DNA from: Owenia fusiformis
Taxonomy: Eukaryota > Annelida > Polychaeta > Sabellida > Oweniidae
Assembly: GCA_903813345.2 (NCBI GenBank)
Contig: CAIIXF020000010.1
Span: 124,001-188,000, forward strand
DNA length: 64,000 bases
Direction of reading: 5' to 3'
The position numbers were made by a program, and so were the translations under genes. Below, piece after piece: positions 9,780 through 62,687 of the stretch (position 1 is the first letter of the stretch; every line of letters starts with the position of its first letter). The notes beneath the pieces were generated by a model, which was not told where the DNA came from, made no database searches, and saw only the letters and a list, made by a program, of their open reading frames with translations.

Positions 9780-12645
9780 ATGAAAGCTGTGCATACAACT
9801 ATTTTGATGAACTTGCTAGTATATGTTATATTTGCCTGCAGTGATAAAATATTTTATTTATATATTTCATGAACTTGCATGTTATATTGGCATGTACCTA
9901 GGCCTGCCGCTATAGGATATTTTATATAAATATTTGATGAACTTGTTTAGTACATATTAATGGCATGTACGAGACATATAGTTATAGAATATGTTATGTA
10001 TATATTTCATGAACTTGCTAGTACATGTTATATTGGCCAACAGTTTTAGAATATTTTATGCATATATTTCATGAACCTGCTAGTACATGTTATATTGGCC
10101 AGCAGTTTTAGAATACTTTATGCATATATTTCATGAACTTGCTAGTACATGTTATATTGGTCAGTAGTTTTAGAATATTTTATGTATATATTTCATGAAC
10201 TTGCTAGTACATGTTATATTGGCCAACAGTTTTAGAATACTTTATGCATATATTTCATGAACTTGCTAGTACATGTTATATTGGCCAGCAGTTTTAGAAT
10301 ACTTTATGCATATATTTCATGAACTTGCTAGTACATGTTATATTGGTCAGTAGTTTTAGAATATTTTATGCATATATTTCATGAACTTGCTAGTACATGT
10401 TATATTGGCCAACAGTTTTAGAATATTTTATGCATATATTTCATGAACTTGCTAGCACATGTTATATTGGCCAACAGTTTTAGAATATTTTATGCATATA
10501 TTTCATGAACTTGCTAGCACATGTTATATTGGCCAACAGTTTTAGAATATTTTATGCATATATTTCATGAACTTGCTAGCACATGTTATATTGGCCAGCA
10601 GTTTTAGAATACTTTATGCATATATTTCATGAACTTGCTAGTACATGTTATATTGGCCAGCAGTTTTAGAATACTTTATGCATATATTTCATGAACTTGC
10701 TAGCACATGTTATATTGGCCAACAGTTTTAGAATATTTTATGCATATATTTCATGAACTTGCTAGCACATGTTATATTGGCCAACAGTTTTAGGATATTT
10801 TATGCATATATTTCATGAACCTGCTAGTACATGTTATATTGGCCAGCAGTTTTAGAATACTTTATGCATATATTTCATGAACCTGCTAGTACATGTTATA
10901 TTGGCCAGCAGTTTTAGAATACTTTATGCATATATTTCATGAACTTGCTAGTACATGTTATATTGGTCAGTAGTTTTAGAATATTTTATGCATATATTTC
11001 ATGAACTTGCTAGTACATGTTATATTGGCCAGCAGTTTTAGAATACTTTATGCATATATTTCATGAACTTGCTAGTACATGTTATATTGGCCAGCAGTTT
11101 TAGAATACTTTATGCATATATTTCATGAACTTGCTAGTACATGTTATATTGGCCAGCAGTTTTAGAATACTTTATGCATATATTTCATGAACTTGCTAGT
11201 ACATGTTATATTGGTCAGTAGTTTTAGAATATTTTATGTATATATTTCATGAACTTGCTAACGCATGTTATATTGGCCAACAGTTTTAGAATATTTTATG
11301 CATATATTTCATGAACCTGCTAGTACATGTTATATTGGTCAGTAGTTTTAGAATACTTTATGCATATATTTCATGAACTTGCTAGTACATGTTATATTGG
11401 TCAGTAGTTTTAGAATATTTTATGTATATATTTCATGAACTTGCTAGTACATGTTATATTGGCCAACAGTTTTAGAATACTTTATGCATATATTTCATGA
11501 ACTTGCTAGTACATGTTATATTGGCCAGCAGTTTTAGAATACTTTATGCATATATTTCATGAACTTGCTAGTACATGTTATATTGGTCAGTAGTTTTAGA
11601 ATATTTTATGCATATATTTCATGAACTTGCTAGTACATGTTATATTGGCCAACAGTTTTAGAATATTTTATGCATATATTTCATGAACTTGCTAGCACAT
11701 GTTATATTGGCCAACAGTTTTAGAATATTTTATGCATATATTTCATGAACTTGCTAGCACATGTTATATTGGCCAACAGTTTTAGAATATTTTATGCATA
11801 TATTTCATGAACTTGCTAGCACATGTTATATTGGCCAGCAGTTTTAGAATACTTTATGCATATATTTCATGAACTTGCTAGTACATGTTATATTGGCCAG
11901 CAGTTTTAGAATACTTTATGCATATATTTCATGAACTTGCTAGCACATGTTATATTGGCCAACAGTTTTAGAATATTTTATGCATATATTTCATGAACTT
12001 GCTAGCACATGTTATATTGGCCAACAGTTTTAGGATATTTTATGCATATATTTCATGAACCTGCTAGTACATGTTATATTGGCCAGCAGTTTTAGAATAC
12101 TTTATGCATATATTTCATGAACCTGCTAGTACATGTTATATTGGCCAGCAGTTTTAGAATACTTTATGCATATATTTCATGAACCTGCTAGTACATGTTA
12201 TATTGGCCAGCAGTTTTAGAATACTTTATGCATATATTTCATGAACTTGCTAGTACATGTTATATTGGTCAGTAGTTTTAGAATATTTTATGCATATATT
12301 TCATGAACTTGCTAGTACATGTTATATTGGCCAGCAGTTTTAGAATACTTTATGCATATATTTCATGAACTTGCTAGTACATGTTATATTGGCCAGCAGT
12401 TTTAGAATACTTTATGCATATATTTCATGAACTTGCTAGTACATGTTATATTGGCCAGCAGTTTTAGAATACTTTATGCATATATTTCATGAACTTGCTA
12501 GTACATGTTATATTGGTCAGTAGTTTTAGAATATTTTATGTATATATTTCATGAACTTGCTAACGCATGTTATATTGGCATGTACTGGAGCCTGCCGTAA
12601 TAAAATATTTTATATAAATATTTGATGAACTTGCTAGTACATGTT
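9780..12645. repeat. 62-bp satellite array with 20-unit higher-order repeats
   Basis: Roughly 45 tandem units of 62 bp carry the core TTCATGAACTTGCTAGTACA, then TGTTATATTGGCCAGCAG, then TTTTAGAATACTTTATGCAT. Variants (GGCCAACAG / GGTCAGTAG, TAGTAC / TAGCAC, TATTTT / TACTTT) recur in the same order 1240 bp (20 units) apart. The single TAGGATATTT variant, for example, sits at 10791 and 12031. Edge units (9780-10000 and 12575-12645) are diverged and carry longer inserts such as GGCATGTACC..GCCTGCCG, as expected of older flanking copies. Confidence 0.95.
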
Positions 12646-28625: not shown

Positions 28626-29022
28626 AGTCTATTAGGAATGCTACCTTGCTCGGAAAATATCACACTTCTTGCGAACGCATTTGTACCACTCGAAAATACA
28701 ACTTTCGGCTCATGGCTCGGGTCGTTAGTTGCTGCTGTTAGTTTTTCAAGTAGACTTTAGTTCAAGATAAGCGCAGCGAAACACTGCAGGATATACAGTC
28801 AACAAATTAACAGCAAAATATGCAATGAAAAATGCAAAATAGATCGCTGTTCAAAAATAAGAGCGTTGCATTTTTGAGTTACCCTGTAATAAATCTTAAT
28901 AAAGCATCATTAAGCAGGCTTGCGTGTCGAACTCGCAAATCGATTAGATCTATAGAGTTTCACTTCTAAACATCAGAAGTTAGAGCATCAAACCAAGAGT
29001 GATTAAAGTTTGGAGAAAGGTC
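28626..29022 (+). promoter_or_regulatory. Upstream region of the ANKH-like gene
   Basis: This is unique, somewhat GC-richer sequence between a MITE and the ATG, with no clear TATA box and no evident splice acceptor just before the ATG. It presumably holds the promoter and 5' UTR, judged only from position. Confidence 0.25.
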
Positions 29023-30408
29023 ATGTGGAACACGATTAATTCAAAGTCAGAATTTGGAGAATATTCATTAATTTGTAAATTATTCCTGCCCTTGTGCATC
29101 TCAAACTTTAGGATTGCGTTTAACAGATATTTAGATTATTTTAGTCAGACATTTGCCGAGGATGTTACATCAGCCTTAACAATTCTTTCGATCGTACGTA
29201 TGATGCTAGCACTATCTAAGTCATACCCATCACCAACTGCGACGAAACAGATATTAATCGTACTCGTGGAGACTCGTCAGGATTTTTACAAAGCCATGGC
29301 ATTTATAGCGCTTTTTGGATCCATAATGCTCTCTATTCTTTTGACGTTTGGATTAACACCGGCAGGTGGACTTTTCAAAATTTTGTTCAAAATTTCAGAT
29401 GATGAGTTACACTTGACACAGCTTGGCATAACTAGCATTTGTCTTGTTCCATTTTTATCAAATCTACAGAATGCATTAGAAGGGATTCTTTTAAAAGAGA
29501 ATAGTTGGAAACTAAACATGTTTTCGAAGATTGACAGCATTCTCCTCAAGATATCCACTGTTGCTGTACTGATGAACACAACTCTAGCGAAATACTACCC
29601 CATTTTCATACCTATTATATCTGTGTATATATCGTCATTATGTGCATTGTTGATATTGGGTTTAGCTTATAAGTTGTCACTTTTCAAAGAACTCCCGGAT
29701 GAGGCATCGAGGCAGAATTCGAACAGAAAACCGCTAACATTTATGGATATCGTGAAGTTGACAGCTCCGATGGGAATGAAACAAATTGTGGAAAAATTTG
29801 AGTTGACACTTTTGAAAATCATCCTTGTTCATATATCGAACAGCGAAATGGAGGGAAAGCATGTATTAGCGTACTTGGATGTCGTGCAAAATGCGGGCTA
29901 CGTATTATCCAGATGGCTATTTGGGATACCACCACTAATGACAGTATATTTAGGAAAGAATTTGAAGAATGTTGTGTACAAAGATCGGTATGATAGACTT
30001 GTTGTGTTTATATCTATTGTTGTAGCATTTGCAACGTTGCTAAAGGTTCTTGTTTGCTGGGTACCATCGTTAACCAAAGCTTTTCTTGTAGGGATTTTTA
30101 ACATACCAGAGATTGAGTTTAATTTTATAAGTTACCCATTCAAGTTGTGGACATTTCGGCCATTATTATATGGCGTGTATACGTTTTCTGTGGGAGTACT
30201 GACACATAAAAAAGACACAAAGATTCTTATCACGTGTTCCATTCTGGAACTAGTGATGATTTCAGGTGTACCGCTTTTGTTAAATCTAATTGAGATATAC
30301 GGCCTACTGTCCGGAATTATGTCCCTTTATATTTCACAAGCGGTATCAACTTATATTGTCTACATATACTATTATGTTAAACATTGTTATCGTGCCACGC
30401 AGCTATAG
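29023..30408 (+). CDS. ANKH-like (progressive ankylosis) membrane protein, intronless
   Basis: This is a single 461-codon frame. The first ATG (29023) is in good context (G at -3); the frame is open further upstream but only from non-ATG codons. The protein is hydrophobic throughout, with about 10-12 predicted membrane segments. It aligns by eye to ANKH along its length: LFLPLCISNF near the N-terminus (ANKH FLVPLGITNI), ILIVLVETRQDFYKAM (VFVNSKRDRTKAV), GILLKENSW (GILLKHKYS), then PIFIPIISVYISSLCALLIL ([20 protein letters not shown]), VPSLTKAFLVGIFNI (TPNVSEKILIDIIGV), and a TM-rich end near IYGLLSGIMSLYISQA. ANKH sits in the plasma membrane and promotes release of ATP/citrate and extracellular pyrophosphate. 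Vertebrate ANKH has introns and a longer acidic tail, which is absent here. The frame is intact, so the gene is probably a functional divergent paralogue or old retrocopy. Identity is low, so a related MATE-like transporter is the alternative. Confidence 0.7.
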   Translation: MWNTINSKSEFGEYSLICKLFLPLCISNFRIAFNRYLDYFSQTFAEDVTSALTILSIVRMMLALSKSYPSPTATKQILIVLVETRQDFYKAMAFIALFGSIMLSILLTFGLTPAGGLFKILFKISDDELHLTQLGITSICLVPFLSNLQNALEGILLKENSWKLNMFSKIDSILLKISTVAVLMNTTLAKYYPIFIPIISVYISSLCALLILGLAYKLSLFKELPDEASRQNSNRKPLTFMDIVKLTAPMGMKQIVEKFELTLLKIILVHISNSEMEGKHVLAYLDVVQNAGYVLSRWLFGIPPLMTVYLGKNLKNVVYKDRYDRLVVFISIVVAFATLLKVLVCWVPSLTKAFLVGIFNIPEIEFNFISYPFKLWTFRPLLYGVYTFSVGVLTHKKDTKILITCSILELVMISGVPLLLNLIEIYGLLSGIMSLYISQAVSTYIVYIYYYVKHCYRATQL

Positions 30409-40439: not shown

Positions 40440-42563
40440 ATTAGAAGATACACAAAATAAAATATTCTAAAGTTCAAAGAAATAACTTCACATGAAACTT
40501 GGGATAATATTACTGAACTCACTGATACAAACGAATCTTATGATAAATTTGAGGATAAGTTGTCAAGTATCTATAATGAATGTTTCCCATTAAAACAAGT
40601 TACAATTAAATTATATAACAATAACCAGAAGCCATGGATAACATTGGCAATACTTAAATCAATTAGAAATAAAAGCAAGCTCTATAAAAAATATCTTAGA
40701 AATCCAAATGATCAAAACAAAAACCAATACAAATCTTTTGCAAATCAGTTAAAAACCATCATAAAATTGTCTGAAAAACAGTATTATTATAACAAATTTG
40801 AACATAATCAGGGCAATATTAAGGCAAATTGGCAAATAATAAATGATATACTTCAAAGGAAAAATAAAAATAACAATATTTCAGATACTTTCCTTCAAAA
40901 TAATGTTGAAATAACAAATAAACAGGAAATAGCAAATCAATTTAATAATTTTTTTGTAAAAGTTTGAGAAAAACTAGCAGCAAAAATACCCAAATCAAAT
41001 AAAAACTCTTTGGACTTTATGCAAACAATAGGGAGACAAGTCGCCACTCTTTTCTTAGATCCAGTTGAAGTCGATGAATTGAATAAAATAATAAAAATTT
41101 AAAACCTTCTGCAGCGGGACACGATGACCTTAAACCTTTTATCATTAAAGAATGCGGATCATTATTTCACCGTCCTCTTTTACATATTTTTAATCTATCT
41201 CTCACAAGCGGAATTTTCCCAGATCGACTTAAAATAGCAAAGGTTATTCCTATATATAAAAAAGATGACGCACATTTTTTCACAAATTATCGCCCAATAT
41301 CAGTTTTACCCATGTTTTCTAAGATTCTGGAAAAGATTATGCACAGTAGAATTACTACATTCAAAGATACAATTGACATTCTGTACATTAACCAATTTGG
41401 ATTAAGGGAAAAAAGATCTACTTCCATGGCTGTCTTGACTTTTATTGAAAAGATTAGAAAAGCAATCGATGATGGTGAATTTACAATAGGACTATTTCTT
41501 GACTTTTCCAAAGCCTTTGATACAAATGATCACAACATTCTATTTAGTAAACTTGACTTTTATGGCATTTGAGGAGTTGCACTTAATTGAATTAAAAGCT
41601 ATTTTACTCATAGAATTCAGAAAACATCATACAAAGATACTTTATCAGACCCTGAATTGATCACCTGCGGAATCCCCCAGGGTTCAATTCTCGGACCATT
41701 GTTTTTTATCCTATACATCAATGATATCTACCTTTATTCTCGACGACTGCTTTTCGCAGATGATACCAATTAATTGATACAAGGGAAAGGTCTAAGTGAC
41801 CTTGCAGATATTCTCAATACTGAATTAAAACATATAGAGGAATGACTCATTACTAATAAATTATCCCTTAATGCTGACAAAACAAAATATATTATATTTA
41901 CTTCAACTCAAAAAAGCGGGTAAAGGTATATAAAATTCACTACATCGTCACCAGAAAAAGTTCACACGCATTGCAACAAATTCTGATTATCAAGCTCATT
42001 CTCTTCCCTTATTCAAACAACTAAACATTTTAAACATATTTGACATAAATAAGCAATTGAAATGGCTTTTTATGTACAAATGGATTAATGAACTTGATAA
42101 TTATCAGAAAATTTTCCCAAACCTCTTTATAACTATCCAGGAGAGACATAATTACAACACCCGAAACAAGTGTTCTTATGTCAAGTCCAAAGTACGAACA
42201 AATTATGGTAGAGCTATGTTGTCTTTCACTGCACCGATAATTTGGAATGAATTAACTGATGAAATGAAATCATCTGAAAGCATCTTAATTATGAAAAAAA
42301 GAACTCAAAAAGTACCTTCTTAATCAATAGTATCATTCATAGTCTATGTTAGTTTTTATAATGATTTGCGGGCCTAATATGACACACACTATTAAGCAGA
42401 AACAAATAGTATGCATTATTGCACAAGCAGATCCCCCATCTGTTCATGTATTATTATAAAACACGGGAATATACACATTATGTGTCACCTGTTTATTGTA
42501 ACCTGTTGTAAAGATATGATTAAATAAGAATAAATAAATAAAAAAAATAAATAAATAAAAAAA
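40440..42563 (+). mobile_element. Non-LTR retrotransposon (LINE) copy in a DCAF12 intron
   Basis: The copy is in the same orientation as DCAF12. It holds most of an ORF2-like reverse transcriptase and ends in an A/T-rich tail of TAAA/AAATAAATAAA repeats (42520-42563), the usual LINE 3' signature. It lies about 50 bp before the acceptor of the next DCAF12 exon. The 5' part (endonuclease) is missing. Confidence 0.8.
40490..42323 (+). pseudogene. LINE reverse transcriptase, broken
   Basis: Blocks appear in the order expected of a Jockey/CR1-like RT: NNQKPWITLAILKSIRNKSK and KANWQIINDIL (40560-40967), AAGHDDLKPFIIKECG (about 41110), NYRPISVLPMFSKILEKIMH (41288 on), NQFGLREKRSTSMAV, then LFLDFSKAFDTNDHNILFSK (RT-A motif). 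After in-frame stops come CGIPQGSILGPLFFILYIND and the FADDT catalytic box (about 41755), then the C-terminal HNYNTRNK and IWNELTDEMK (42057-42323). Several stops and at least two frameshifts make it inactive. Between FADDT and the C-terminal block part of the ORF appears deleted. Confidence 0.85.
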
Positions 42564-43562: not shown

Positions 43563-46500
43563 TTAAAGGGCCCGATAAGCTTCCCGTATAAAAACAATAT
43601 GGCGGCTCCTGGATCAGTCCATTTTTAAGAAATAAGGGGAGTTCTGTAAAATCCAGTTTAAATTGTCTTTGAGATAAAGTAATCCGTTTATAATGATTTT
43701 GAAAACATTATCCATAGAGTGATAGAGTTCAAAGAATATGTACAACAGCCAATATAAATCCTTGTATTAGAACTGCTTTGTTATCCCATCGAACGAAGTT
43801 CGGAGGGATATAGGGAACGCCTCCGTCCGTCCGTACGTACGTCCGTACGTACGTACGTCCGTCCGTACGTCCGTCCATCCGTCTGTCCGTCTGTCCGGGC
43901 AATAACTCAAATACCGTTGGCCCGACACACTGAGTTCCCTAATGGAAACTGTGATCATGTCCTTAGCTGACCTCTGCTGTAGGCAGGCATCAAGTAACAG
44001 TAAGGCGGCCAATCGTTAATGCTAAGTTTTGTTTACTGATAAGAAGCAGCATTTAAAAGTACACTGTGGTTTAGAATCCATTGTAATTAACCGACATTCT
44101 AGTTTTTGTAATAATGACCATGGATGTTTCACAAATTGTAGAATTTAATTAGAAAATTAATTTTGTGTATTCAATTACCTTTCCAGAAGTACCAAAAACT
44201 TCTAAATCGGTGCAATATACCCTACACACTGATTGACAGCAATTTGCAACCCTCTCATAAACATTCACATTTGAAACTGAATTTGACATCTTCTTACATA
44301 ATTAAAGAAATAACTGAAGTTTGCCCAATGATGCTGTTTATACACAAATATTCAGGAGTTTAACCTGAGTATTATGATATAAATACCTATTTTCTTTCAT
44401 TTTTTTTATTTTCCTATATCAAAAATGAATGAATTTTAGTGTAAATCAAATTATGAACTGAACAATTTAAATTTGGATTATTAGAATCGATATCCAGGTA
44501 AAAATTGGAAATATCATATTTATAGCTCAGACAGATATAAGCAGATACTCACATTGAAATTTCTTGGAAAATTGTGCTCTTTTGCCACATATCCTACAGG
44601 TGTTAAGTAAACAATCCGCATTGTAACTACTGTTCAAACTTGTCATAATCCAAATTAAAGTTCATCTTACTCATTTAAAAAAAATGAAAGAAAATATTGC
44701 ACTAGTGATTGACAAACGTGAAACTTTTCAGAACAACTACATTATATGCTTCTTGTACAGAAAACTTCTGATTGTTCTTTAATTAACTTTGAAGATGGAA
44801 AGAATCAAGATAAGCCAGCATTCCTAAGGTTAAGAAAATCAGACTAATGGCTATTAAGAGTATCAAAGTGGTGAGAAAGGAGTGTTGGGGTTTAAAGTGA
44901 TGACAGGCTAATTAATTTATTTGCTGAAGATGTTTATGAAGTATACCATATAGTTGTAGTTCCAATAAAACCATGGGATCTAGAGGAATCTGAACAGGCA
45001 CATTAGCCATATTGTTTATCATAACAACAAGCAACTGAGCATGCGTAGCATTAACAACTGGTCTGCAGCTTAACTTCCTATCAGTTGACCTCAATTCCGT
45101 TTTGCCTATCTATGAAATCAGTGTGCCGATTTTGTTCATATTTTGTACACATATACCTTATGGGAGTAGAAGTTCTGCTCGAAAGCCGATTTTCAAAATG
45201 GCCGCTCATTTCAAAATGGCGGTCATTTTAGTGCCGATTTTACAGTAATTTAGGTGCAATATGTAAAACTGTTGTAGCAATATGTTTTAAATGTAAAAAA
45301 AGTTATAAAGGACATTAATAATGCTACAAATGTAGATATTTAAGAAGCACATGGCAGCCATCTTGAAAAATGGTGGCCTTTACTCATCATTTTACGATTT
45401 TTGCTATAACTCAAAAAATAGTGGAGCGATTTTGTTCATATTTGGTATGTGAATACTATAAGCATTGTACACTGTCTTAAGACACTTTTGGTAGAAGGCG
45501 GCCATTTTGAAAAATGGCCGCCATTTTAACGTATTTTACTATAACTCGAAAAGTAGTGGAGCAGTTTTTTCATATTTGGTATGTGAATACTATAAGCACG
45601 GCACACTGCCCTATGACACTTTTGGTAGAAGGCGGCCATTTTGAAGAAAAAATTGAAAAATGGCCTCCATTTTAACATGTTTTACTGTAACTCGAAAAGT
45701 AGTGGAGCGATTTTGTTCATATTTGGTATGTGAATACTATAAGCATGGCACACTGTCCTATGACACTTTTGGTAGAAGGCGGCCATTTTGAAAAAAATTT
45801 TGAAAAATGACTGCCATTTTAACGTATTTTACTATTATTATCGAAAAGTAGTGGAGCAATTTTGTTCATATTTGGTATGTGAATACTATAAGCATGGCAC
45901 ACTGTCTATTTCTAATGACACTTTTGGTAGAAGGTGGCCATTTTGAAAAATGGCCGCCATTTTAACGTATTTTACTATAACTCAAAAAGTAGTGGAGCGA
46001 TTTTGTTCATATTTGATATGTGAATACTTTAAGAATGGCACATTTTCTAATTAAACTTTGGGGAGTAGTCGGCCATTTTGAAAATGGCCACCATTATTAT
46101 GTGTGTTATTTTACAAGTACGTGTGCGATTTTTCAAAAATTTTAGAGGTGGCTACTGAAAAGCATATTATTTCTTCTGATGACAACTTGGCTAGTGAGCA
46201 ACCATTTTGAAAATGGTGGCCTTTCTTATGTGTGTTGTTTTATGATATTTGCTATTCGTTTGTAAAAATGCCAGCCATTTCTGTTCGATGGGATTCGCTA
46301 CACTTTGGCGTTGCCGTTGTTCTGGTTTCATTTGTAGAATATTTAATATGCCAAGCTGTGTGCTATTACGTTATGGGGAAATTTAGATGTCAATTTTTCC
46401 TTATTATACACAAATAGAAGATCCTGAAACTTCACCCATAAATGTGGAATTGATTTGTCAAAATAAAAATCACCCTTTTATAAATGCGTGACGATCTATA

Positions 46501-51452: not shown

Positions 51453-52015
51453 TAATGCCTTGTTACCAATTTCTTTTTAAAAAACATCTTCAAATTCTAG
51501 GAGTTCAAATCTGACCATAGTTTTGAGATTTAACCCTAACTTGGCCTTCAGTGACATTCGAAGGTCAAAAAATTGATTTTTCAAATTCAAATTTTGGTCA
51601 GCTTAATCATAAAATACCTTTTGAGCTCTAAGAAAAGTAAAATTTGCAAGGTCTAAGGTCAAGATCATTAAACTAGGTCACAAACTTTACTATCTAAGTT
51701 TCTCAAAGTTTAAAACTACAAATCAATATTCTTGGTTGAAAGTCAGGATACACATTCCTATAAAGGTCATACACTGTGTGAGCTTTCAATAGATGAATGC
51801 ATGATAAATATGTGTTAAAATTATGGACTAGTAAAGTTTACTGCTAGAACTGACATTTATGTCATTGTGACTCTGCTTAGTACAGTGTTACATCATTCAG
51901 TTGATCTCATGCTTTTCTACAAGAGGATTTGTACTTTTAAAGATATAAGCCTCAATTTTTGTTTAATATTTTCTCTTGAATCTATTCAAAGCCATCCTAA
52001 AATTTTATTTTTAAG
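51453..52015 (+). other. DCAF12 intron end
   Basis: The first part continues diverged copies of the preceding element's units. The rest is plain AT-rich intron up to the acceptor TTTTTAAG at 52015. Confidence 0.4.
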
Positions 52016-52188
52016 GATCACGAGATGGTAACCTTGCTTTATGGCATATTCCCGATACCTTGGAGGACAACGTTTCAAGGATGCAGAGTCTGCAAGTACC
52101 TGAATATTCAGTGATAAACCCCACATTACGACGATTCTGTAAAAAAGCTGAAAAAGTACGGGCATTGGCCTATAATGATAATTCTGGT
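52016..52188 (+). CDS. DCAF12: DCAF12, exon spanning WD40 blades 2-3
   Basis: A 173-nt exon, entered with two bases completing a Gly codon. It reads GSRDGNLALWHIPDTLEDN (human GSRDGSMGLWEVTDD), a divergent linker with VSRMQSLQVPEYSVINPTLR, then KVRALAYNDNSG (human KVRALAFNNKNK). It ends at GGT|GTAAGT, phase 0. The SRDG..LW pattern is the WD40 end-of-blade signature. A 252-bp intron separates it from the next exon. Confidence 0.93.
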
Positions 52189-52440: not shown

Positions 52441-52503
52441 CATATAGCTGCCTTGTCACTTAATGCTTATGTTCACCAGTATGACACAAGAACCTTCAAA
52501 CAG
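52441..52503 (+). CDS. DCAF12: DCAF12, 63-nt exon that seeded the 70-bp array
   Basis: The exon is bounded by TTCTGTTGTAG and CAAACAG|GTAAGC and encodes HIAALSLNAYVHQYDTRTFKQ minus one residue at neither end (21 codons, phase 0-0). It corresponds to human [20 protein letters not shown], the body of the third WD40 blade. Joined directly to 62528 it keeps the frame, so one copy is enough for a normal protein. Its last 54 nt and its donor are the source of the tandem array that follows. Only this first copy has a proper acceptor right at the exon start. Confidence 0.9.
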
Positions 52504-55500
52504 GTAAGCAGCAACTCCTGCCTCATCCATTAATGCTTATGTTCACCAGTATGACACAATAACCTTCAAACAGGTAAACAACAACTCCTGCCTTGTCCCT
52601 TAATGCGTTTGTTCACCAGTATGACACAAGAACCTTCAAACAGGTAAGCAACAACTCCTGCCTTGTCCCTTAATGCTTATGTTCACCAGTATGACACAAA
52701 AACCTTCAAACAGGTAAGCAACAACTCCTGCCTTGTCCCTTAATGCTTATGTTCACCAGTATGACACAAAAACCTTCAAACAGGTAAGCAACAACTCCTG
52801 CCTTGTCCCTTAATGTGTATGTTCACCAGTATGACACAAGAACCTTCAAACAGGTAAGCAACAACTCCTGCCTTGTCCCTTAATGTGTATGTTCACCAGT
52901 ATGACACAAAAACCTTCAAACAGGTAAGCAACAACTCCTGCCTTGTCAATTAATGCTTATGTTCACCAGTATGACACAAGAACCTTCAAACAGGTAAGCA
53001 ACAACTCCTGCCTTGTCAATTAATGCTTATGTTCACCAGTATGACACAAGAACCTTCAAACAGGTAAGCAACAACTCCTGCCTTGTCCCTTAATGCGTTT
53101 GTTCACCAGTATGACACAAAAACCTTCAAACAGGTAAGCAACAACTCCTGCCTTGTCCATTAATGCTTATGTTCACCAGTATGACACAAAAACCTTCAAA
53201 CAGGTAAGCAACAACTCCTGCCTTGTCAATTAATGCTTATGTTCACCAGTATGACACAAGAACCTTCAAACAGGTAAGCAACAACTCCTGCCTTGTCCAT
53301 TAATGCTTATGTTCACCAGTATGACACAAGAACCTTCAAACAGGTAAGCAACAACTCCTGCCTTGTCAATTAATGCTTATGTTCACCAGTATGACACAAG
53401 AACCTTCAAACAGGTAAGCAACAACTCCTGCCTTGTCAATTAATGCTTATGTTCACCAGTATGACACAAGAACCTTCAAACAGGTAAGCAGCAACTCCTG
53501 CCTCATCCATTAATGCTTATGTTCACCAGTATGACACAATAACCTTCAAACAGGTAAACAACAACTCCTGCCTTGTCCCTTAATGCGTTTGTTCACCAGT
53601 ATGACACAAGAACCTTCAAACAGGTAAGCAACAACTCCTGCCTTGTCCCTTAATGCTTATGTTCACCAGTATGACACAAAAACCTTCAAACAGGTAAGCA
53701 ACAACTCCTGCCTTGTCCCTTAATGCTTATGTTCACCAGTATGACACAAAAACCTTCAAACAGGTAAGCAACAACTCCTGCCTTGTCCCTTAATGTGTAT
53801 GTTCACCAGTATGACACAAGAACCTTCAAACAGGTAAGCAACAACTCCTGCCTTGTCCCTTAATGTGTATGTTCACCAGTATGACACAAAAACCTTCAAA
53901 CAGGTAAGCAACAACTCCTGCCTTGTCAATTAATGCTTATGTTCACCAGTATGACACAAGAACCTTCAAACAGGTAAGCAACAACTCCTGCCTTGTCAAT
54001 TAATGCTTATGTTCACCAGTATGACACAAGAACCTTCAAACAGGTAAGCAACAACTCCTGCCTTGTCCCTTAATGCGTTTGTTCACCAGTATGACACAAA
54101 AACCTTCAAACAGGTAAGCAACAACTCCTGCCTTGTCCATTAATGCTTATGTTCACCAGTATGACACAAAAACCTTCAAACAGGTAAGCAACAACTCCTG
54201 CCTTGTCAATTAATGCTTATGTTCACCAGTATGACACAAGAACCTTCAAACAGGTAAGCAACAACTCCTGCCTTGTCCATTAATGCTTATGTTCACCAGT
54301 ATGACACAAGAACCTTCAAACAGGTAAGCAACAACTCCTGCCTTGTCAATTAATGCTTATGTTCACCAGTATGACACAAGAACCTTCAAACAGGTAAGCA
54401 ACAACTCCTGCCTTGTCAATTAATGCTTATGTTCACCAGTATGACACAAGAACCTTCAAACAGGTAAGCAACAACTCCTGCCTTGTCCCTTAATGCGTTT
54501 GTTCACCAGTATGACACAAAAACCTTCAAACAGGTAAGCAACAACTCCTGCCTTGTCCCTTAATGCGTTTGTTCACCAGTATGACACAAGAACCTTCAAA
54601 CAGGTAAGCAACAACTCCTGCCTTGTCCCTTAATGCTTATGTTCACCAGTATGACACAAAAACCTTCAAACAGGTAAGCAACAACTCCTGCCTTGTCCCT
54701 TAATGCTTATGTTCACCAGTATGACACAAAAACCTTCAAACAGGTAAGCAACAACTCCTGCCTTGTCCCTTAATGTGTATGTTCACCAGTATGACACAAG
54801 AACCTTCAAACAGGTAAGCAACAACTCCTGCCTTGTCCCTTAATGCTTATGTTCACCAGTATGACACAAGAACCTTCAAACAGGTAAGCAGCAACTCTTG
54901 CCTTGTCCATTAATGCTTATGTTCACCAGTATGACACAAGAACCTTCAAACAGGTAAGCAACAACTCCTGCCTTGTCCCTTAATGCTTATGTTCACCAGT
55001 ATGACACAAAAACCTTCAAACAGGTAAGCAACAACTCCTGCCTTGTCCCTTAATGTGTATGTTCACCAGTATGACACAAGAACCTTCAAACAGGTAAGCA
55101 GCAACTCTTGCCTTGTCAATTAATGCTTATGTTCACCAGTATGACACAAGAACCTTCAAACAGGTAAGCAACAACTCCTGCCTTGTCCATTAATGCTTAT
55201 GTTCACCAGTATGACACAAGAACCTTCAAACAGGTAAGCAGCAACTCTTGCCTTGTCCATTAATGCTTATGTTCACCAGTATGACACAAGAACCTTCAAA
55301 CAGGTAAGCAACAACTCCTGCCTTGTCCATTAATGCTTATGTTCACCAGTATGACACAAAAACCTTCAAACAGGTAAGCAACAACTCCTGCCTTGTCCCT
55401 TAATACGTTTGTTCACCAGTATGACACAAGAACCTTCAAACAGGTAAGCAACAACTCCTGCCTTGTCCCTTAATGCGTTTGTTCACCAGTATGACACAAA

Positions 55501-58500
55501 AACCTTCAAACAGGTAAGCAACAACTCCTGCCTTGTCCCTTAATGCGTTTGTTCACCAGTATGACACAAGAACCTTCAAACAGGTAAGCAACAACTCCTG
55601 CCTTGTCCCTTAATGCTTATGTTCACCAGTATGACACAAGAACCTTCAAACAGGTAAGCAACAACTCCTGCCTTGTCAGTAAATGTGTATGTTCACCAGT
55701 ATGACACAAGAACCTTCAAACAGGTAAGCAACAACTCCTGCCTTGTCCCTTAATGCTTATGTTCACCAGTATGACACAAAAACCTTCAAACAGGTAAGCA
55801 ACAACTCCTGCCTTGTCAATTAATGCTTATGTTCACCAGTATGACACAAGAACCTTCAAACAGGTAAGCAACAACTCCTGCCTTGTCCATTAATGCTTAT
55901 GTTCACCAGTATGACACAAAAACCTTCAAACAGGTAAGCAACAACTCCTGCCTTGTCCATTAATGCTTATGTTCACCAGTATGACACAAGAACCTTCAAA
56001 TAGGTAAGCAACAACTCTTGCCTTGTCCATTAATGCTTATGTTCACCAGTATGACACAAGAACCTTCAAACAGGTAAGCAGCAACTCTTGCCTTGTCCAT
56101 TAATGCTTATGTTCACCAGTATGACACAAGAACCTTCAAACAGGTAAGCAACAACTCCTGCCTTGTCCATTAATGCTTATGTTCACCAGTATGACACAAA
56201 AACCTTCAAACAGGTAAGCAACAACTCCTGCCTTGTCCATTAATGCTTATGTTCACCAGTATGACACAAGAACCTTCAAACAGGAAAGCAGCAACTCTTG
56301 CCTTGTCCATTAATGCTTATGTTCACCAGTATGACACAAGAACCTTCAAACAGGTAAGCAACAACTCCTGCCTTGTCCATTAATGCTTATGTTCACCAGT
56401 ATGACACAAGAACCTTCAAACAGGTAAGCAACAACTCCTGCCTTGTCCATTAATGCTTATGTTCACCAGTATGACACAAGAACCTTCAAACAGGTAAGCA
56501 ACAACTCCTGCCTTGTCCCTTAATGTGTATGTTCACCAGTATGACACAAGAACCTTCAAACAGGTAAACAACAACTCCTGCCTTGTCCCTTAATGCGTTT
56601 GTTCACCAGTATGACACAAGAACCTTCAAACAGGTAAGCAACAACTCCTGCCTTGTCCCTTAATGCTTATGTTCACCAGTATGACACAAAAACCTTCAAA
56701 CAGGTAAGCAACAACTCCTGCCTTGTCCCTTAATGCTTATGTTCACCAGTATGACACAAAAACCTTCAAACAGGTAAGCAACAACTCCTGCCTTGTCCCT
56801 TAATGTGTATGTTCACCAGTATGACACAAGAACCTTCAAACAGGTAAGCAACAACTCCTGCCTTGTCCCTTAATGTGTATGTTCACCAGTATGACACAAA
56901 AACCTTCAAACAGGTAAGCAACAACTCCTGCCTTGTCAATTAATGCTTATGTTCACCAGTATGACACAAGAACCTTCAAACAGGTAAGCAACAACTCCTG
57001 CCTTGTCAATTAATGCTTATGTTCACCAGTATGACACAAGAACCTTCAAACAGGTAAGCAACAACTCCTGCCTTGTCCCTTAATGCGTTTGTTCACCAGT
57101 ATGACACAAAAACCTTCAAACAGGTAAGCAACAACTCCTGCCTTGTCCATTAATGCTTATGTTCACCAGTATGACACAAAAACCTTCAAACAGGTAAGCA
57201 ACAACTCCTGCCTTGTCAATTAATGCTTATGTTCACCAGTATGACACAAGAACCTTCAAACAGGTAAGCAACAACTCCTGCCTTGTCCATTAATGCTTAT
57301 GTTCACCAGTATGACACAAGAACCTTCAAACAGGTAAGCAACAACTCCTGCCTTGTCAATTAATGCTTATGTTCACCAGTATGACACAAGAACCTTCAAA
57401 CAGGTAAGCAACAACTCCTGCCTTGTCAATTAATGCTTATGTTCACCAGTATGACACAAGAACCTTCAAACAGGTAAGCAACAACTCCTGCCTTGTCCCT
57501 TAATGCGTTTGTTCACCAGTATGACACAAAAACCTTCAAACAGGTAAGCAACAACTCCTGCCTTGTCCCTTAATGCGTTTGTTCACCAGTATGACACAAG
57601 AACCTTCAAACAGGTAAGCAACAACTCCTGCCTTGTCCCTTAATGCTTATGTTCACCAGTATGACACAAAAACCTTCAAACAGGTAAGCAACAACTCCTG
57701 CCTTGTCCCTTAATGCTTATGTTCACCAGTATGACACAAAAACCTTCAAACAGGTAAGCAACAACTCCTGCCTTGTCCCTTAATGTGTATGTTCACCAGT
57801 ATGACACAAGAACCTTCAAACAGGTAAGCAACAACTCCTGCCTTGTCCCTTAATGCTTATGTTCACCAGTATGACACAAGAACCTTCAAACAGGTAAGCA
57901 GCAACTCTTGCCTTGTCCATTAATGCTTATGTTCACCAGTATGACACAAGAACCTTCAAACAGGTAAGCAACAACTCCTGCCTTGTCCCTTAATGCTTAT
58001 GTTCACCAGTATGACACAAAAACCTTCAAACAGGTAAGCAACAACTCCTGCCTTGTCCCTTAATGTGTATGTTCACCAGTATGACACAAGAACCTTCAAA
58101 CAGGTAAGCAGCAACTCTTGCCTTGTCAATTAATGCTTATGTTCACCAGTATGACACAAGAACCTTCAAACAGGTAAGCAACAACTCCTGCCTTGTCCAT
58201 TAATGCTTATGTTCACCAGTATGACACAAGAACCTTCAAACAGGTAAGCAGCAACTCTTGCCTTGTCCATTAATGCTTATGTTCACCAGTATGACACAAG
58301 AACCTTCAAACAGGTAAGCAACAACTCCTGCCTTGTCCATTAATGCTTATGTTCACCAGTATGACACAAAAACCTTCAAACAGGTAAGCAACAACTCCTG
58401 CCTTGTCCCTTAATACGTTTGTTCACCAGTATGACACAAGAACCTTCAAACAGGTAAGCAACAACTCCTGCCTTGTCCCTTAATGCGTTTGTTCACCAGT

Positions 58501-61500
58501 ATGACACAAAAACCTTCAAACAGGTAAGCAACAACTCCTGCCTTGTCCCTTAATGCGTTTGTTCACCAGTATGACACAAGAACCTTCAAACAGGTAAGCA
58601 ACAACTCCTGCCTTGTCCCTTAATGCTTATGTTCACCAGTATGACACAAGAACCTTCAAACAGGTAAGCAACAACTCCTGCCTTGTCAGTAAATGTGTAT
58701 GTTCACCAGTATGACACAAGAACCTTCAAACAGGTAAGCAACAACTCCTGCCTTGTCCCTTAATGCTTATGTTCACCAGTATGACACAAAAACCTTCAAA
58801 CAGGTAAGCAACAACTCCTGCCTTGTCAATTAATGCTTATGTTCACCAGTATGACACAAGAACCTTCAAACAGGTAAGCAACAACTCCTGCCTTGTCCAT
58901 TAATGCTTATGTTCACCAGTATGACACAAAAACCTTCAAACAGGTAAGCAACAACTCCTGCCTTGTCCATTAATGCTTATGTTCACCAGTATGACACAAG
59001 AACCTTCAAATAGGTAAGCAACAACTCTTGCCTTGTCCATTAATGCTTATGTTCACCAGTATGACACAAGAACCTTCAAACAGGTAAGCAGCAACTCTTG
59101 CCTTGTCCATTAATGCTTATGTTCACCAGTATGACACAAGAACCTTCAAACAGGTAAGCAACAACTCCTGCCTTGTCCATTAATGCTTATGTTCACCAGT
59201 ATGACACAAAAACCTTCAAACAGGTAAGCAACAACTCCTGCCTTGTCCATTAATGCTTATGTTCACCAGTATGACACAAGAACCTTCAAACAGGAAAGCA
59301 GCAACTCTTGCCTTGTCCATTAATGCTTATGTTCACCAGTATGACACAAGAACCTTCAAACAGGTAAGCAACAACTCCTGCCTTGTCCATTAATGCTTAT
59401 GTTCACCAGTATGACACAAGAACCTTCAAACAGGTAAGCAACAACTCCTGCCTTGTCCATTAATGCTTATGTTCACCAGTATGACACAAGAACCTTCAAA
59501 CAGGTAAGCAACAACTCCTGCCTTGTCCCTTAATGTGTATGTTCACCAGTATGACACAAGAACCTTCAAACAGGTAAGCAACAACTCCTGCCTTGTCCAT
59601 TAATGCTTATGTTCACCAGTATGACACAAGAACCTTCAAACAGGTAAGCAACAACTCCTGCCTTGTCAATTAATGCTTATGTTCACCAGTATGACACAAG
59701 AACCTTCAAACAGGTAAGCAACAACTCCTGCCTTGTCCATTAATGCTTATGTTCACCAGTATGACACAAGAACCTTCAAACAGGTAAGCAGCAACTCTTG
59801 CCTTGTCCATTAATGCTTATGTTCACCAGTATGACACAAGAACCTTCAAACAGGTAAGCAACAACTCCTGCCTTGTCCATTAATGCTTATGTTCACCAGT
59901 ATGACACAAAAACCTTCAAACAGGTAAGCAACAACTCCTGCCTTGTCCATTAATGCTTATGTTCACCAGTATGACACAAGAACCTCCAAACAGGTAAGCA
60001 ACAACTCCTGCCTTGTCCATTAATGCTTATGTTCACCAGTATGACACAATAACCTTCAAACAGGTAAGCAACAACTCCTGCCTTGTCAATTAATGCTTAT
60101 GTTCACCAGTATGACACAAGAACCTTCAAACAGGTAAGCAACAACTCCTGCCTTGTCAATTAATGCTTATGTTCACCAGTATGACACAAGAACCTTCAAA
60201 CAGGTAAGCAACAACTCCTGCCTTGTCACTAAATGTGTATGTTCACCAGTATGACACAAGAACCTTCAAACAGGTAAGCAACAACTCCTGCCTTGTCCCT
60301 TAATACGTTTGTTCACCAGTATTGACACAAGAACCTTCAAACAGGTAAGCAACAACTCCTGCCTTGTCACTTAATGCTTATGTTCACCAGTATGACACAA
60401 AAACCTTCAAACAGGTAAGCAACAACTCCTGCCTTGTCCCTTAATGCGTTTGTTCACCAGTATGACACAAGAACCTTCAAACAGGTAAGCAACAACTCCT
60501 GCCTTGTCCCTTAATGTGTATGTTCACCAGTATGACACAAAAACCTTCAAACAGGTAAGAAACAACTCCTGCCTTGTCACTTAATGATTATGTTCATCAG
60601 TATGACACAAGAACCTTCAAACAGGTAAGCAGCAACTCCTGCCTTGTCACTTAATGGGTAAGTTTACCAGTATGACACAAGAACCTTCAAACAGGTAAAC
60701 TTCTGCCTTGTCACTTAATGCTTATGTTCACCAGTATGACACAAGAACCTTCAAACAGGTAAGCAACAACTCCTGCCTTGTCCCTTAATGCGTTTGTTCA
60801 CCAGTATGACACAAGAACCTTCAAACAGGTAAGCAACAACTCCTGCCTTGTCCCTTTATGTGTATGTTCACCAGTATGACACAAGAACCTTCAAACAGGT
60901 AAGCAACAACTCCTGCCTTGTCCCTTAATGCGTTTGTTCACCAGTATGACACAATAACCTTCAAACAGGTAAGCAACAACTCCTGCCTTGTCCCTTAATG
61001 CTTATGTTCACCAGTATGACACAAAAACCTTCAAACAGGTAAGCAACAACTCCTGCCTTGTCCCTTAATGCTTATGTTCACCAGTATGACACAAGAACCT
61101 TCAAACAGGTAAGCAACAACTCCTGCCTTGTCCCTTAATACGTTTGTTCACCAGTATTGACACAAGAACCTTCAAACAGGTAAGCAACAACTCCTGCCTT
61201 GTCCCTTAATACGTTTGTTCACCAGTATGACACAATAACCTTCAAACAGGTAAGCAACAACTCCTGCCTTGTCCATTAATGCTTATGTTCACAAGTATGA
61301 CACAAAAACCTTCAAACAGGTAAGCAACAACTCCTGCCTTGTCCATTAATGCTTATGTTCACCAGTATGACACAAGAACCTTCAAACAGGTAAGCAACAA
61401 CTCCTGCCTTGTCCCTTAATACGTTTGTTCACCAGTATGACACAAGAACCTTCAAACAGGTAAGCAACAACTCCTGCCTTGTCCCTTAATGTGTATGTTT

Positions 61501-61826
61501 ACCAGTATCGACACAATAACCTTCAAACAGGTAAGCAACAACTCCTGCCTTGTCCCTTAATACGTTTGTTCACCAGTATGACACAAGAACCTTCAAACAG
61601 GTAAGCAACAACTCCTGCCTTGTCCCTTAATGCGTTTGTTCACCAGTATTGACACAAGAACCTTCAAACAGGTAAGCAACAACTCCTGCCTTGTCCCTTA
61701 ATGCGTTTGTTCACCAGTATGACACAAGAACCTTCAAACAGGAAAGCAGCAACTCTTGCCTTGTCCATTAATGCTTATGTTCACCAGTATGACACAAGAA
61801 CCTTCAAACAGGAAAGCAACAACTCC
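52450..61826 (+). repeat. Exon-plus-donor minisatellite: ~133 tandem 70-bp units inside DCAF12
   Basis: Each unit is 54 nt of exon (GCCTTGTC...AACCTTCAAACAG) plus 16 nt of intron (GTAAGCAACAACTCCT). Units differ at a few fixed sites: CCCTTAATGC / CAATTAATGC / CCATTAATGC, GCTTAT / GCGTTT / GTGTAT, ACACAAG / ACACAAA / ACACAAT. The donor CAG|GTAAGC is kept in nearly all. GTAAAC variants occur (52571, 53551, 56561) and GAAAGC losses occur (56281, 59291 and the last two units). Blocks repeat at 3010 bp (53551-56560 and 56561-59570) and 980 bp (52571-53550 and 53551 on). From about 60310 the units carry more indels. The array fills most of the intron before 62528. Confidence 0.97.
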
Positions 61827-62527
61827 AAGGCATTTGTCTTGTTCATTTCACTATATTTTACCCTGTCATACCCTGCCTTATTGTGAAGTATTATTTTGAT
61901 GCCCTATGTCCGGAAACGGAAGTAGGAAAATTGACATTCCCTAGCAGTAGTTATTGATTAAAATAGAATGGTATTGTTAGTATTTTATACATGTACAGTA
62001 CATGTACTTTTATACATGTGTTTCATGCCTTTTTGGAATCTAACGAACATTGTGTATCATAAGTCGGCAACTCTGTCATTTATTTTGCACCAATGGATTT
62101 ATAACAAATTATAAAATGATATTCTAATGACCCTGGACACGCTTGTCCAGGAGCATAGTTATATGAACAGTTAATATTATATTAATTAGAAACTGCTATA
62201 CAAAATAAGAATTTAGTATTACTCAATTGAGTTCCCCATGGCTGATCATAATACATGACAAGTATACTCCTAGATCCTCTTTGTAAAATAAGACAGCCAA
62301 TATTTGTATAATGCAAATCAATTTCTTATTGCTTTTGTTGACATGAAAAGGGAGGGGGTCAATTGTAATTTTTATCTATTAAATTACAGTATATACTGTA
62401 TATCATTAGATATTAGTGAAAATAATGGGATGACTTTTTGATGATTGTAAATTATTTTTATACCTCTTACCACAAAACTTTCTCAATAAGCTAAAATTTG
62501 ATTTGATATTTTCTGCTCATGTTTCAG
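61827..62527 (+). other. DCAF12 intron after the array
   Basis: Unique AT-rich sequence with a short palindromic TACATGTACAGTACATGTA near 61988, ending in the acceptor CATGTTTCAG. No gene. Confidence 0.5.
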
Positions 62528-62687
62528 ATATGCTGTAAAAAGCTTCACCACACTCGTGAGAATGTGTGTATGTCTGTGCACAAGGATAGAGGTCTGTATG
62601 CAGTAGGATCACAGTCTTATGTTGCTTTACTGGACTCAAACACACTTAAGCATGTACATAGTATATTATCTAAACAAAGAGGCTGTG
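62528..62687 (+). CDS. DCAF12: DCAF12, exon with fourth WD40 blade (gene continues past window)
   Basis: A 160-nt exon from GTTTCAG to TGTG|GTAAGT, phase 0 to 1. It reads KKLHHTRENVCMSVHKDRG, then LYAVGSQSYVALLDSNTLKH and VHSILSKQRGCG. This matches human STKLPYCRENVCLAYGSEW, VYAVGSQAHVSFLDPRQ and SVCSREGGSG. Together the six exons cover roughly the first two-thirds of DCAF12. The exons expected to encode the 'VGTGQGSLLFYD' blade and the C-terminus are not found in the last 1.3 kb of the window. Confidence 0.92.

Follow-up and report, generated by a model that had tools for sequence, protein, structure and literature searches.

The window analysed here, a 64,000-nucleotide stretch of the Owenia fusiformis genome (C10:124001-188000), contains part of a DCAF12 gene in which a tandem array of 70-bp units begins inside a coding exon and occupies most of the following intron (Table 1). 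When four exons were joined, their translation matched human DCAF12 in the PDB (8t9a and 8ajm) with an E-value of 5.3e-27, the repeated exon lying within the alignment, and three joined exons matched the Pfam family Beta-prop_DCAF12 (E 2.9e-20). On its own, the repeated exon gave no Pfam match at 0.05, because its 21 amino acids are too few. The tblastn bait for the DCAF12 exons was a human DCAF12 sequence. Later conserved exons of the gene lie outside the window, at C10:188319-188465 and 188839-188988, so the gene continues beyond it. The original prediction had staked itself on homology to DCAF12 in an alignment; this homology held, and judged by these matches the identity of the gene can be regarded as solid. 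Frames at window positions 40461-42320, within the DCAF12 region, resemble, by inspection, pieces of a putative non-LTR reverse transcriptase. An unbroken frame of 474 codons at 28984-30405 is unusually long for the window.

Table 1. Features of the DCAF12 locus (positions in the window) and exon-end arrays at other loci of the assembly
Feature	Position	Strand	Remarks
Upstream DCAF12 exon	52015-52188	+	Open frame GSRDGNLALWHIP...NDNSG; tblastn to human DCAF12; PDB 8t9a/8ajm
63-nt DCAF12 coding exon, intact source of the repeat	52441-52503	+	Reads HIAALSLNAYVHQYDTRTFKQ, phase 0; within the DCAF12 alignment
First (native) donor, GTAAGC	52504-52509	+	
Intron, 10,024 nt	52504-62527	+	9,323 nt array and 701 nt single-copy; following exon open from 62528
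Array, 70 bp x 134	52448-61826	+	Unit 0 exonic, remaining units intronic
Higher-order block, units 16-57	53568-56507	+	Identical to 56578-59517
Higher-order block, units 59-100	56578-59517	+	Identical to 53568-56507
Donor GT to GA, unit 132	61742-61743	+	
Donor GT to GA, last unit (133)	61812-61813		
Next DCAF12 exon	62528-62687	+	ICCKKLHHTRENVC...KQRGC
Exon-end arrays with homology			L007 soluble Rieske; L011 NIF phosphatase; L013 XPNPEP3; L045 K+ channel; L050 C2 domain; L012 scramblase; L033 Caprin-1; L034 kringle; L036 Il2rg-type; L038 protein kinase; L039 PP2A B56; L051 RETREG/ARL6IP; L043 INTS9; L046 Lon; L047 SMC4; L048 ABCC5
Exon-end arrays by eye			L009, L010, L032, L042, L049, L052, L055, L056, L057, L058, L060

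Tandem Repeats Finder reported the array with a period of 70, 134.0 copies and 95% matches, and cutting at a fixed motif likewise yielded 134 units, whose 133 spacings comprised 128 of 70 bp, four of 71 bp and one of 64 bp. With head-to-tail units of tens of base pairs spanning more than a few hundred base pairs, the array is a minisatellite. It starts 7 nt within the 63-nt exon, which gives units made up of 56 exonic and 14 intronic nucleotides, and unit 0 is the genuine exon, with its acceptor (...TTGTAG) and its donor (CAG/GTAAGC, the slash marking the junction). The right end reads ...CAACTC and passes into single-copy intron (CAAGGCATTTG), and neighbouring units meet at CAACTC/CTGCC, a junction showing that the founding duplication shared at most about one base at its ends. 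These boundaries, together with the DCAF12 homology, bear out the original prediction that an exon end and its donor had been amplified into a minisatellite within their own gene. Its figures of 54 nt of exon and 16 nt of intron needed correction to 56 and 14, the former split having arisen because the start was set two bases later than the array boundary. In the assembly scanned (498,259,871 bases in 525 contigs), an exact 25-mer from the unit had 84 matches, all inside the DCAF12 array, and the reversed control had none, which rules out a dispersed satellite.

Donors within the array are highly uniform. Among the 133 units that measure 70 or 71 bp, 123 carry CAGGTAAGC, which is the native DCAF12 donor 9-mer, three carry CAGGTAAAC, two TAGGTAAGC, one CAGGTAAGA and four CAGGAAAGC; the 64-bp unit carries CAGGTAAAC. 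The donor GT is kept in 130 of 134 units, and GTAAGC in 125, in agreement with the original count of over 120. A change from GT to GA accounts for units 54 and 97 as well as for the two units closest to the downstream acceptor (Table 1), which are thus among the four without GT. Using general splice-site frequency tables, we obtained a score of 11.3 for the native donor, and just one plus-strand GT in window positions 1-51000 scored equally high. As the copied donors are identical to the native one, the donor itself gives copy 1 no advantage, a point against preferential use of the first donor. The array donors may serve as decoys or alternative sites. The earlier suggestion that the array titrates U1 snRNP gained no support. 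Read past donor 1, the following unit gives VSSNSCLIH and then a stop, which use of donor 2 would meet. A lengthened blade-3 exon, which had been put forward earlier, would therefore add no protein, 70 not being a multiple of 3. Unit 117 (60639-60702), the sole unit of 64 bp, carries an extra GGGTAAGTTTACCAG, possibly a new pair of donor and acceptor within the unit.

Similar arrays were found elsewhere in the genome. Three CAGGTRAG words spaced 51-81 nt apart gave 926 matches genome-wide vs 85 for the reversed word, and the corresponding counts were 853 vs 124 at 20-50 nt, 128 vs 63 for CAGGTAAGT triples at 51-81 nt, and 218 vs 79 for CAGGTRAGT triples at 82-112 nt, although one array yields many matches, so that these counts overstate the enrichment. 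Single CAGGTRAG words numbered 24,946, compared with 16,555 for the reversed word. When arrays rather than matches were counted on C1, the longest contig, at the 51-81 nt spacing, there were at least four donor arrays against at least one control array, a difference that is not significant. Across the 51-81, 20-50 and 82-112 nt scans, C1 (62.2 of 498 Mb) held at least nine arrays, which would extrapolate to about 70 genome-wide for the CAGGTRAG word alone if C1 is typical. At least 38 CAGGTRAG arrays besides that of DCAF12 were present among the matches listed, and 37 of these were sampled, C11:10468162 being left out as its 5' end lay outside the listed matches. At that locus (C11:10468162-10475473, minus strand), CAGGTAAGT recurs with a 76-bp period in an array that extends over at least 7 kb.

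In all 37 sampled arrays, open frames ending at the first donor were translated and compared by homology. Sixteen start at the end of a coding exon with homology at E<1e-3 (Table 1), and 14 of these pass the Pfam cut-off or match a PDB entry, while the kringle and the protein kinase fall under the curated cut-off. A further 11 look exon-like by eye, with an open frame behind an acceptor-like AG and no database match; for L056 and L060 the PDB gave no match either. In the remaining 10 of the 37 (L008, L035, L037, L040, L041, L044, L053, L054, L059 and L061), no exon was found at the first donor. The recurrence of exon-end arrays in other genes rules out an oddity confined to DCAF12.

Against a recurrent class of exon-end arrays count the choice of the 37 by their donor word, the 10 in which no exon was found and the 11 exon calls made by eye only. 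If arrays were placed at random on CAGGTRAG words, about 34% would be expected to lie on real donors, a share derived from the surplus of the word over its reverse; the 16 of 37 confirmed cases are not above this expectation (p 0.14), whereas the 27 of 37 that include the by-eye cases are above it (p 1e-6). The reversed word listed 19 control loci, of which 18 were taken, C124 being left out because it has the same letters as C2:18427459. With six low-complexity loci excluded, the search at 12 of the 18 took in 28 frames at exon ends and 26 at exon starts. One confirmed exon-end array was found among the 18 loci, at a neurotransmitter symporter exon (L017; SNF, 2.4e-10; donor AAG/GTATAG), and two further control arrays (L021 and L026) look exon-end-like by eye, with matches only under the cut-off. 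Weak control-locus matches under the cut-off were to ATP-synt_I (0.038), CFEM (0.0092) and Peptidase_M20 (0.014, from an added L021 peptide); a Pox_A14 match at 0.0088, also under the cut-off, was taken as chance. The 26 exon-start frames at the 12 loci gave nothing convincing, and one segment searched in each of two low-complexity control loci (L014 and L022) gave no match.

On the acceptor side, the word TTTTTNCAG gave 145 triple matches vs 48 for its reverse, many of them from one dispersed repeat, and its single occurrences (64,900) were fewer than those of the reversed control (76,732), so that this word is not above background. Short arrays of a dispersed repeat roughly 31 bp long (TTTTTTCAGAAATCTACCGTAAAAACTCCCG) occur on most large contigs among the matches listed. 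A hotspot for arrays at 5' splice junctions is suggested rather than shown. A bolder proposal, which we regard as rather doubtful, is that 5' junctions are favoured birthplaces of minisatellites, with maybe hundreds of arrays seeded by something that acts at exon ends during transcription or repair. Dozens of genes would then carry long series of identical donors, and differences in their length among individuals might adjust expression.

Retention of the donors was also compared with that of the rest of the unit. In the DCAF12 array, the mismatch rate was 0.008 in the donor columns and 0.034 in the rest, so that the donor varied less within this one array, but columns 23-53 (0.012) and 63-70 (0.014) beside it were almost as invariant, and four of nine donor columns were variable vs 21 of 70 overall. 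Among 21 other arrays, the donor 9-mer had a mismatch rate below the rest in just nine (Wilcoxon p 0.50), even though 19 of the 21 had been chosen by donor word, a bias towards conserved donors. There is no sign of selection for donor retention in the arrays. Of 17 arrays, five have a next-copy spacing divisible by 3, or two to three of 17 when the basic period is taken, where 5.7 would be expected. The added unit is stop-free in six of 17, and use of the second donor adds a stop in the other 11, DCAF12 included; this frame analysis took the exon part of DCAF12 as 44 nt, the true value being 56, since unit 1 differs from unit 0. The stop past donor 1 and the lack of enrichment for multiple-of-3 spacings rule out an expansion of coding sequence.

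Repeats in such positions have precedents. The original prediction knew of no described case of this kind, which does not stand in view of the ABCA7 intron-18 VNTR (PMC5954066) and of the human tandem repeats at exon-intron boundaries catalogued in 2009 (PMC2812944, which cites Zhuo et al. 2007). The ABCA7 VNTR has a 25-bp unit whose first two bases are the exon-18 donor, and it spans 298-10,678 bp, or about 12-427 units (PMC5954066). Retention of one unit, through the second donor, occurs independently of VNTR length and causes a frameshift, and longer VNTRs are accompanied by more exon-19 skipping and lower expression (PMC5954066; PMC6660495), while the authors report that length has no effect on nonsense-mediated decay (PMC5954066). 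As described there, that array resembles the one in DCAF12 in lying directly behind an intact exon, in being intronic and in holding the native donor in its unit; it differs in that its 25-bp unit starts at the donor GT, whereas 56 of the 70 nt of the DCAF12 unit are coding exon. ABCA7 is also known from RNA, population and disease data in this literature, and the DCAF12 array from genome sequence alone. By analogy, ABCA7 is the best guide to how the DCAF12 array behaves.

Other systems are related as well. The human boundary repeats average 30 bp by four copies and lie in primate duplicated genes, where interest centred on altered coding sequence and on the origin of introns (PMC2812944); like the present arrays they are minisatellites across exon-intron boundaries that alter gene structure, but the present arrays are longer and occupy the intron that follows an intact exon. 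In a model of intron gain, tandem duplication of an exonic AGGT creates a new intron (PMC3443670). The stretch duplicated in DCAF12 also contains AGGT, but it spans from exon into intron and is followed by single-copy intron, and the 701 nt behind the array suggest that the intron is older than the array. In the accessible part of the open-licence literature, no report was found of a genome in which minisatellites of exon end plus donor recur in many genes.

We consider it likely that the array arose by a tandem duplication over the 5' splice site that was tolerated since the first exon and donor stayed intact, that it grew by unequal exchange and is spliced out with the 10,024-nt intron, and that it belongs to a recurrent class. 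As the sequence shows, the founding duplication ran from within the 63-nt exon to 14 nt into the intron and so copied the 5' splice junction. With the whole exon and the native donor retained in the first copy, later copies fell in the intron and the gene stayed readable. On the ABCA7 precedent, splicing most likely proceeds for the most part from the first donor, with the array excised as part of the intron, and use of a later donor, which adds a stop, would feed nonsense-mediated decay. The same type of event has occurred at other exon ends of this genome, and donor-junction minisatellites would then be a recurrent, mostly tolerated class and not a device of DCAF12.

It is unlikely that the array instead acts as an active decoy, with a sizeable share of the pre-mRNA spliced from donors 2-134 into degraded, stop-containing transcripts and array length tuning the dose of DCAF12. 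The near-uniform copies of a donor whose score is almost unrivalled on the plus strand of window positions 1-51000 would suit such a role, as would the one-unit retention seen in ABCA7 and the drop in its expression as the VNTR lengthens (PMC5954066); but in that same study unit retention is unchanged by length and no length effect on nonsense-mediated decay was seen, and across the 21 arrays the donor columns show no selection.

How the units vary suggests that the array grew through unequal exchange or the duplication of blocks, which is what the preferred reading proposes. The 133 units comprise 37 distinct sequences that are reused many times in blocks. Units 1-13 are letter-identical to units 15-27, a 13-unit run at an offset of 14, and a 42-unit run recurs at an offset of 43 as an identical block of 2,940 bp (Table 1), so that 14-unit and 43-unit higher-order repeats are present. 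Divergence is greater at the right edge, where every length variant is found. This is the usual minisatellite picture of unequal exchange or block duplication in the interior and an ageing edge. The 2,940-bp block may have been duplicated recently or may reflect a loop in the assembly, and its repetition letter for letter is what would be expected if the array were real and its copy number of 134 wrong, for example through a loop in the repeat graph. We regard such an artefact of length as fairly improbable, as the 37 distinct sequences and the diverged right edge favour a real array of many units. With the block duplications as a hint from one assembly, the data suggest that array length may differ among individuals. 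Since the distance of the window from one end of its 37.5-Mb contig is just 124-188 kb, the array may be subtelomeric.

Each CAG/GT in the array could also serve as acceptor and then as donor, the intron being removed in 70-nt steps by recursive, dual-specific splicing. AGGT is present at the same position in 130 of the 134 units, and PMC10809524 gives precedents in VCX3A and in polyubiquitin UBC, whose dual-specific array likewise has AGGT at one fixed place per unit but consists of 228-nt coding monomers that stay in frame either way. Such splicing is nevertheless very improbable here, as CAG/GT is weak as an acceptor (score 2.5 with the frequency tables, equalled by 20% of window AGs) and as UBC-type units are coding and multiples of 3 (PMC10809524), whereas the DCAF12 unit is neither, with its 70 nt and a stop past donor 1. 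Least probable of all is a bank of microexons, in which TTCACCAG/TATG would act as acceptor and each unit would offer an in-frame, stop-free exon of 24 nt (YDTRTFKQ or near) for insertion after the native exon: TTCACCAGTAT is kept in 130 of 133 full units, 24 nt preserve the frame and the acceptor scores 5.9 (same tables), close to the 8.2 and 6.7 of the real acceptors and among the best 5.2% of AGs at window positions 1-51000, but introns between adjacent units would be just 46 nt, the segment is inherited coding sequence and four 71-bp units break the frame.

Designed minigenes are the usual means of studying how the spliceosome picks one of several equal 5' splice sites. In this one genome there is a natural series of about 4 to 134 near-identical donors per acceptor, in conserved genes that include DCAF12, INTS9, Lon, SMC4 and PP2A-B56 among others. 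Beside these arrays, the VNTR of ABCA7, which is a risk factor for Alzheimer disease, would no longer stand alone but belong to a wider class. Donor arrays will also mislead exon prediction and the alignment of RNA reads, a warning for annotators.

Finally, several other tandem repeats were observed. A second large minisatellite lies at window positions 9980-12579 (62 bp x 42, 95% matches), arrays of this sort being abundant in the genome. A dispersed tandem family with a repeat of 134-149 bp (ACTATAACTC..AAAAGTAGTGGAGC...) occurs in the window at 45388-46095 and on other contigs at L020 (1919-2600) and L025 (310-560), where it adjoins two unrelated arrays. At C1:1245097-1251365, CAGGTGAG occurs four times at a spacing of exactly 2,087 bp, which marks a larger tandem repeat.
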